From a bacterium (GTDB lineage Bacteria; Bacillota; Clostridia; Oscillospirales; Acutalibacteraceae), in the NCBI GenBank assembly GCA_020625875.1, contig JAHLAX010000048.1:1-64000 (forward strand): DNA of 64,000 nt, read 5' to 3'. Below are positions 10,643 to 25,250 of the stretch, in pieces. A program made the translations under genes and the position numbers. How positions within the stretch are numbered: position 1 is the first letter of the stretch; every line of letters begins with the position of its first letter. A model generated the notes under the pieces. The model was given only the letters and a program-made list of their open reading frames with translations. It had not been told where the DNA came from and did not search any database.

Positions 10643-10903
10643 ATGAATTTTACTTTGTTTTTTATAATTCTCGGCGTGGCTTTTTTGTTGTTTATAATTA
10701 TCCACATAATCTCAAAAAATAAAAGACCCGTCAGACGAGCCTTTTTATCTGTTCTGTCGGGAGCCGCTGCGCTCGCGGCGGTTGACGCGGCGAGTATTTT
10801 TACTGGCGTTTATATCCCAATCAGTTTATTATCTTTAATTGTTTCATTTGTCGGGGGAATCCCCGGGGTGACAGCGCTTCTGGCGCTAAACCTTTTCTTT
10901 TAA
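10643..10903 (+). CDS. bofA: BofA-family pro-sigmaK processing inhibitor-like protein
   Basis: Small membrane protein ending VGGIPGVTALLALNLFF, the BofA C-terminal signature; ATG 10643 with ggaagtg RBS. Confidence 0.8.
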   Translation: MNFTLFFIILGVAFLLFIIIHIISKNKRPVRRAFLSVLSGAAALAAVDAASIFTGVYIPISLLSLIVSFVGGIPGVTALLALNLFF

Positions 10904-23207: not shown

Positions 23208-23238
23208 AAAGTCGCCGCATATTGCGACGACTTTTTTT
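23208..23238 (-). terminator. Terminator of spo0A overlapping its stop codon
   Basis: Minus strand: aaagtcgtcgcaatatgcggcgacttt hairpin; T-rich flanks. Confidence 0.75.
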
Positions 23239-24001
23239 AACTCGCGTTCTTCAGTTGTAATCTCAGCTTATCGGCTATCATAGCGATAAACTCGCTGTTA
23301 GTCGGCTTGCCTCTGCCGTTATGTATAGTATATCCGAAGTACGAATTGAGCACATCCACATCGCCTCTGTCCCAGGCAACCTCAATAGCGTGGCGAATAG
23401 CTCTTTCAACTCTTGATGATGTAGTTTCGTATTTCTTCGCGACACTCGGGTATAGCTGTTTTGTAACCGCGTTTATAATTTCGGGATGCTCAATTGACAT
23501 TATAATCGAATCCCTCAGATAATTATATCCTTTTATATGAGCTGGAACGCCGATGTCGTGTAGAATCTCTGTGACCTTTAGCTCAATCCCGTAATTGTCA
23601 TAAAGATTAACAGAGCTTCTGGTTTTTCCTTTGTTATAAAGCGTTAGTATATCCTCGCATATGGCTTTAATGTTGTAAGGCTTTAGCGCGTAGTAACTCG
23701 CTCCGCTCGTCATAATCTCTCTTTCGAGCGCGGGACTGTTGAATGAGGCGGTAACAATTATAATAGGGGATTTAACTTTCTTTTGTTTAATCATTCTCAT
23801 AACACCGAGCGAATCAAGCCTTGTCATAAACAGATTCATTATTACAACGTCAGGCGATTCGTTCATAATTTTTAATAAAAGTTCTTCTCCGTCATTATTA
23901 CAGAACTCAGGTAAAATATTATAACCTTTTATTATATTCAAATCTTCGTCTGTAAAAGTGTTTATATCTTCCGTAATCAGCAGTTTTATTGGTTTATTCA
24001 T
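23237..24001 (-). CDS. spo0A: Sporulation master regulator Spo0A with substituted phospho-acceptor (Asn56)
   Basis: C-domain [57 protein letters not shown] is near-canonical Spo0A; receiver has ...[23 protein letters not shown] 24001 chosen for best spacing to ggagg. Confidence 0.95.
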
Positions 24002-24161
24002 ATTCATATCCTCCGTTAATTTTGTTTGCAAGCTAATACTACCATAAAGTGGTAAAATTGGCAATAGTTTCCAATTAACTTTTTTAAAAATTTGCGATTT
24101 TTTTATTACATACTTTTAATATTCTAAAGAAAACATCAATATATTGTATATTGCGCGATAA

Positions 24162-24181
24162 ATCGACACAATATATCGACA
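24162..24181 (-). promoter_or_regulatory. Tandem 0A-box-like sites TGTCGAT-N6-TGTCGAT upstream of spo0A
   Basis: ATCGACA at 24162-24168 and 24175-24181 (+ strand), i.e. TGTCGAT twice on the gene strand; one mismatch from the TGTCGAA 0A-box. Confidence 0.5.
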
Positions 24182-24230: not shown

Positions 24231-25250
24231 TCAGTTGTTAATCATATTTGTTGCCAATATTGCGTAGCCCATTGTACAGTCATCAATAAATACGTGCGTC
24301 AGCGCTCCGACGAATTTACCGTTTTGTATTATCGGGCTTCCGCTCATACCCTGAACAATTCCGTTTGTTTTCTTTAAAAGCTTTTTGTCTGTGATTTTTA
24401 TTATCATATTTCTGTTGCTGTCTGGGTTGTTGTTGCATATATCAATAATTCTTATTTCATATTTCTTTGGCTTTTCGCCTTTGATTGTCGAATACATTAT
24501 TGCTTTGCCCATTGTGATTTCATTTATATCGGCTGCTTTATATCGCTTTTTGTTCGGTGTCAAATATAATTTACCGTAAACGCCTTTATTACAGTTATTT
24601 TTAATTGTTCCGATTTTTGTGTCGGTAAAATATCCGTTCAGGGTACCAATATTGTTATTTTCAGATTTGTTAACGCTTGTTATTGCCGCGCTTATTATTT
24701 CTCCGCTGTCGCTGTACATAAGCCCGCCAGTGTCTATATCGCATATACCGTGACCGAGCGCTCCGTAAGTCATATTATCAGGATTATAATAGCTTATTGT
24801 GCCGAGTCCCGCGCAGCTGTCACGAATCCACATTCCCGTATAATACTCGTTATTGTTATTCTTTTTTGGCTTAATTATAGTTACTGTTTCTTTGTCGTTT
24901 CTTAGAATTGTCAGTTTTATAGGCTTTCCATTTGATGCTTTAACTATATTGCTGAATTGCTCGTTACTTTTAATACTAATTTTATTCGCCTTTGTTATAA
25001 TATCGTTTATCTGTATTCCCGCATCTTTAGCGGGGCATACAAGGTTATCGCCGCTTTTATAGTTTTCGAGTTTTAGCACCATTACACCCTTGCAATAGAG
25101 TTTCATCCCGAACGTTTCACCGCCTATAATTACCTCAGTGGTTTTTGCCTGTGTCGGAATTATACAGATACTAAAGGAAAAAATAACAGCAAAAATAATT
25201 GTAATTAACTTAAAATATGATTTTTTTACCAAATTTTCACCTCCTTTCAA
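24231..25250 (-). CDS. spoIVB: SpoIVB-type serine peptidase (S55)
   Basis: GMWIRDSCAGLGTISYY...YGALGHGICDIDTG...GIVQGMSGSPIIQNGKFVGALTHVF; PDZ-like middle; adjacent to spo0A as in other spore formers. Confidence 0.92.
   Translation of the reverse strand: MKGGENLVKKSYFKLITIIFAVIFSFSICIIPTQAKTTEVIIGGETFGMKLYCKGVMVLKLENYKSGDNLVCPAKDAGIQINDIITKANKISIKSNEQFSNIVKASNGKPIKLTILRNDKETVTIIKPKKNNNNEYYTGMWIRDSCAGLGTISYYNPDNMTYGALGHGICDIDTGGLMYSDSGEIISAAITSVNKSENNNIGTLNGYFTDTKIGTIKNNCNKGVYGKLYLTPNKKRYKAADINEITMGKAIMYSTIKGEKPKKYEIRIIDICNNNPDSNRNMIIKITDKKLLKKTNGIVQGMSGSPIIQNGKFVGALTHVFIDDCTMGYAILATNMINN

Follow-up and report, generated by a model that had tools for sequence, protein, structure and literature searches.

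To our knowledge, endospore formers are all taken to phosphorylate Spo0A on one Asp; finding spo0A in a gut genome also serves as a predictor of sporulation. The literature describes the Asp of the Spo0A receiver as a conserved residue at which the protein is activated (PMC11210211). Receivers lacking the acceptor Asp are nevertheless an established class, which makes up about 4% of REC domains and where Glu is the commonest replacement (26%) and Asn the second (16%), with RitR and ChxR as examples; an Asn-to-Asp reversion in a receiver is cited in the same work, and in Spo0A the D-to-E change alone was insufficient for activation (PMC4395418). Pro at D+4 and Gly at D+8 are depleted in pseudo-receivers, according to a 2025 review (PMC12632262).

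Described Asp-less receivers carry output domains other than that of the Spo0A studied here (PMC4395418, PMC12632262). RitR of Streptococcus pneumoniae has a natural Asn53 at the acceptor position and keeps the first acidic residue and the Lys, as does our protein; however, it is activated via a linker cysteine and has no sporulation role, whereas no such cysteine switch is in evidence for this Spo0A. ChxR, HP1043 and BldM/WhiI are essential or developmental regulators that work without receiver phosphorylation, which likens them to the state proposed below, but they belong to other regulator families and their activity was shown experimentally.

The window, meaning the whole analysed stretch of 64,000 nucleotides, comes from the MAG of an uncultured gut bacterium (284 contigs, 97% complete, 5.73% contamination). 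It carries, on the minus strand, an ORF of 254 aa with no internal stop whose translation is Spo0A. The features used below are as follows.

23237 to 24001, minus strand: spo0A gene, 254 aa, single copy (translation, profile searches of the genome)
23264 to 23575, minus strand: Spo0A_C effector (DNA-binding) domain (profile, structure match; 56-61% identity to solved Spo0A effector domains)
23636 to 24001, minus strand: receiver (REC) domain, residues 1-122, normal REC fold predicted (Response_reg profile, structure model)
23681 to 23683, minus strand: conserved Lys107, retained (alignment)
23747 to 23749, minus strand: Ala85 at the conserved Thr/Ser position (alignment, model)
23750 to 23752, minus strand: Thr84, one residue upstream of Ala85 (alignment)
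23834 to 23836, minus strand: codon 56, AAT, giving Asn where the phospho-acceptor is expected; the three nearest species have GAT (translation, alignment)
23966 to 23971, minus strand: acidic pair E11-D12, retained (alignment)
24036 to 24064, minus strand: promoter-like TTGCCA-17-TAGTAT, the -10 being of the extended type (relatives have a similar block ahead of spo0A)
24162 to 24181, minus strand: two tandem 0A-box-like sites (TGTCGAT), putatively bound by Spo0A (conserved in much of the sub-clade)
24231 to 25250, minus strand: spoIVB, directly upstream of spo0A as in other spore formers (TIGR02860)

The protein scored 257.4 bits against the Spo0A equivalog TIGR02875 (cut-off 200), with its effector domain reaching 156.6 bits for the Spo0A_C family (cut-off 25) and its receiver 43 bits for Response_reg (cut-off 30.2). 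In the AlphaFold2 model, the fold of the effector domain matches 1fc3/1lq1, and the REC part (pLDDT mostly >90) has the Spo0A receiver 5wq0 among its structure matches. SpoIVB, free of stops, matched TIGR02860 with 313.6 bits (cut-off 305.25), so that the spoIVB-spo0A synteny is present. Domain order, effector domain, spoIVB neighbour and REC fold are thus shared with the Spo0A proteins of B. subtilis and C. difficile (TIGR02875), from which this one differs by N56, by A85 and by the lack of a detected Spo0B or unpaired kinase. A second canonical Spo0A, a possibility raised by the preliminary description, was not found: the single Spo0A_C match in the 97%-complete genome is the protein itself.

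N56 aligns on D56 of B. subtilis Spo0A by both MAFFT and hhalign, and neither alignment places a different Asp at the phospho-acceptor position; the B. subtilis reference used is what we take to be the correct sequence, and alignments to Spo0A entries of the PDB agree with it. Ala85 falls in both alignments on the conserved Thr/Ser position (Ser in 47 of 49 class-wide control Spo0A proteins), closes strand beta-4 of the AlphaFold2 model, and lies 22 residues from Lys107, a spacing equal to that of B. subtilis. Thr84 was considered as the conserved Thr and rejected, since both alignments, and the point where beta-4 is predicted to end, favour Ala85. The preliminary description, made from the sequence, had reported a Spo0A with a canonical effector domain, an intact-looking spoIVB beside it and Asn at the D56-equivalent position, all of which hold; it had also taken the other receiver residues to be retained, which is correct for E11-D12 and Lys107 but not for the conserved Thr. 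As read from the alignments, two of the five catalytic positions, Asp and Thr/Ser, are lost because of N56 and Ala85, and the protein is a Spo0A orthologue whose defining switch residue is altered, Asn replacing the phosphorylatable Asp56. Replacement of both positions, together with Thr60 rather than Pro at D+4 and Ser64 rather than Gly at D+8, places it among Asp-less receivers, with which it shares the replaced acceptor as well as two features typical of them, the Ala at the Thr position and the loss of Pro at D+4 (PMC4395418, PMC12632262).

Spo0B and orphan kinases, for which the preliminary description had suggested a check, were looked for in the same genome. No SPOB_a match was found (at 97% completeness, so the absence is not absolute), and a Spo0B-like domain was missing from 20 of 22 genomes searched, the other two giving weak matches below the family cut-off. 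Five sensor kinases with HisKA and HATPase_c domains were identified (ORFs of 508, 487, 376, 418 and 479 aa), each adjoining a response regulator, and the search revealed no unpaired kinase in the 97%-complete genome; the remaining HATPase_c matches read as gyrase, MutL, HSP90 and anti-sigma proteins by size or sequence. The complete genome of the D56 sister G033 also has only five kinases, all paired with a response regulator, so that, judging by these gene inventories, species with Asp seem to lack dedicated kinase input already. For two proteins of G073, a species with E56, pairing could not be called: a hybrid kinase and a protein at a contig edge. Input might still come from an unusual type of kinase, from a kinase lost in an assembly gap, or by cross-talk of the paired ones.

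We tentatively favour, at slightly less than even confidence, a Spo0A with a pseudo-receiver that works without Asp phosphorylation and whose output would be set mainly by the Spo0A level, by unphosphorylated dimerisation or by a partner. Under this reading, Spo0A would still be a DNA-binding regulator of sporulation, with a receiver no longer switchable by Asp phosphorylation and a REC domain maintained for its role in structure or dimerisation. Its output would depend mainly on its amount, through the promoter, the 0A-box-like sites upstream and feedback, or alternatively on dimerisation of the unphosphorylated protein or on a partner. The N56 species would mark one extreme of a broader drift in the group, in which dedicated kinase input is seemingly gone already and other members have Glu at the site. 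The promoter and the putative 0A-box-like sites upstream of spo0A would fit control by abundance and feedback. What we infer is that Spo0A goes unphosphorylated in the cell, acts in that state and is controlled by its abundance. Counted against this explanation are the occurrence of N56 in one MAG, one transition from the GAT of the sisters, the retained acidic pair and Lys, the off-like character of Asn, the insufficiency of D-to-E alone for activating Spo0A, and the fact that no clear conserved 0A boxes were found upstream of spoIIE, spoIIAA and spoIIGA. Its main rivals are an early loss of sporulation and a MAG artefact at the Asn codon.

Palindromic elements, TTGGAAACTATTGCCAATTTTACCACTTTATGGTAGTAT at 24036-24074 of the window, lie across the promoter of spo0A in 59 of the 136 species compared within the genus and are a possible operator; a defined operator was rejected, as the palindromes are not conserved genus-wide.

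The first rival holds that D56N is inactivating and that the lineage has stopped or is stopping sporulating, with its other genes yet to decay. Asn at the acceptor position is usually off-like and mimics the unphosphorylated state, in which Glu is unlike it; N56 is also recent, the sisters having Asp, and Spo0A was not detected in some genomes of the genus that are 91-95% complete. On the other side, SpoIIE, SpoIVA, SpoIIGA, SpoIIAB and SpoIVB are all present in the source genome without stops, in line with the preliminary description, which had argued against a simple loss of sporulation (if the loss were very recent, decay would be invisible); the SpoIIE score is below the curated cut-off, likewise in all its relatives examined. 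Compared with the sister, dN/dS is about 0.07 for the REC domain and about 0.01 for the effector domain, with dS near saturation. A raw contrast of 13 receiver and 0 effector changes, which might have indicated relaxed selection on the source branch, vanished once the changes were polarised with outgroups, leaving 5 and 0 on this branch and equally 5 and 0 on the sister stem. By these estimates the receiver is under purifying selection, and the low dN/dS, taken with the lack of an excess of receiver changes, indicates that spo0A is maintained. With the effector domain unchanged on this branch as well, we consider an early loss of sporulation unlikely.

The three genus genomes without a detected Spo0A (G026, G049 and G156, 91-95% complete) all contain SpoIVA, and the two searched for SpoIIE have at least part of it; the missing Spo0A may reflect assembly gaps or real loss. 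Within the window, a small membrane protein ending in VSFVGGIPGVTALLALNLFF (10643-10903) is, from its sequence, probably the bofA named in the preliminary description.

The second rival is sequencing, assembly or strain-level variation, whereby Asp would be the state of the population and the MAG consensus would show a G-to-A change. The nearest species, G007, G033 and G015 (89%, 86% and 85% identical), all have GAT at codon 56. Asn56 is therefore not fixed in a clade, as the preliminary description had thought possible, and N56 was discarded as a clade marker. Because N56 is one transition (GAT to AAT) found in one species and in one fragmented, partly contaminated MAG, a base error or a strain variant is possible. 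However, the rest of spo0A is clean and under purifying selection, and independent assemblies, those of cultured isolates included, show losses of the Asp, so that states of this kind do exist in the group. Among 138 genus species, position 56 is Asp in 120, Glu in 17 and Asn in 1, requiring 3 changes on a genus tree built without the active-site columns. All Glu56 species but one (16 of 17) cluster together, three Asp species falling among them, and this cluster is drawn from independent assemblies; the 17th, G157, is almost identical to one Asp species, and its Glu could be an error or a strain variant. Outside the genus, relatives taken from named records have Asn56 (L068, L081, L087 and L100, the last from cultured Bittarella massiliensis), Glu56 (L067, L107 and L080, the last from cultured Massiliimalia massiliensis) or Ser (L092). 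A wider tree of 104 sequences gave about 11 changes at this position, an approximate figure as several branches are long, while the class-wide control had Asp in 49 of 49 Spo0A proteins. The Glu cluster and the cultured isolates stand regardless of the one base at codon 56 of this spo0A. We regard an artefact as rather unlikely.

Beyond position 56, all five catalytic residues ([DE][DE]-D-[ST]-K) are kept in 55 of the 138 genus species versus 44 of the 49 controls (Fisher p = 4.6e-10, which overstates independence because the species are related), and Pro at D+4 is mostly missing genus-wide. As judged from these alignments, catalytic erosion of the receiver within the genus is not confined to the acceptor. 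In a sub-clade of ~39 genus species, Gln, His or Lys replaces the first acidic residue at position 11; nearly all of them keep D56.

Phosphorylation elsewhere instead, at a different acidic residue or at a Ser or Thr through a Ser/Thr kinase, is very unlikely, T60, T84 and S86 near the pocket being the candidates. Deamidation of Asn56 to Asp, through which part of the Spo0A would be phosphorylated normally in a slow post-translational activation, is highly improbable: the reversion cited above and the retained acidic pair and Lys would accommodate it, but the Thr/Ser position is occupied by Ala, no dedicated kinase was found in the source genome, and deamidation is generally slow when, as here, a bulky Leu follows the Asn.

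A Spo0A working without Asp phosphorylation is the reading that we tentatively retain. Its independence of a phosphorelay, proposed in the preliminary description for a whole lineage, is partly supported: the acceptor Asp and the Thr/Ser are missing, neither Spo0B nor an unpaired kinase was found in the 97%-complete genome, the sporulation genes tested look intact and purifying selection acts on spo0A; the lineage-wide part does not stand, as Asn is not fixed. Because the site is lost repeatedly in relatives, the sequences suggest that spore formation in the source organism is no longer under textbook control. A broader proposal, that in this large uncultured Oscillospirales genus and some relatives Spo0A has repeatedly lost its tie to kinases and Asp phosphorylation although the sporulation programme was kept, entry being set by abundance or another ligand, is possible but doubtful. 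The literature searched yielded no natural Spo0A with D56N or D56E, and what appears to be new is that Spo0A joins the Asp-less receiver class, repeatedly, in one branch. Repeated loss of the Asp with later sporulation genes kept would constitute a natural experiment on the rewiring of a master developmental switch and a warning for sporulation predictions based on the presence of spo0A. The cultured B. massiliensis (N56) and M. massiliensis (E56) open the question to testing now.

Other proteins with a Spo0A_C domain occur in the group. About a fifth of 100 genus genomes searched encode a paralogue, a second Spo0A_C-domain protein with lower scores (roughly 53-87 bits) whose receiver looks canonical, with acidic pair, acceptor Asp, Thr and Lys (20 sequences, L274-L293); by profile search it is absent from the source genome. 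In B. massiliensis (L100/G161), a pair of adjacent additional Spo0A_C proteins is encoded near 1084143-1085887 of contig 9. M. massiliensis (G162) has a second one, L303, with Ser at the acceptor position.
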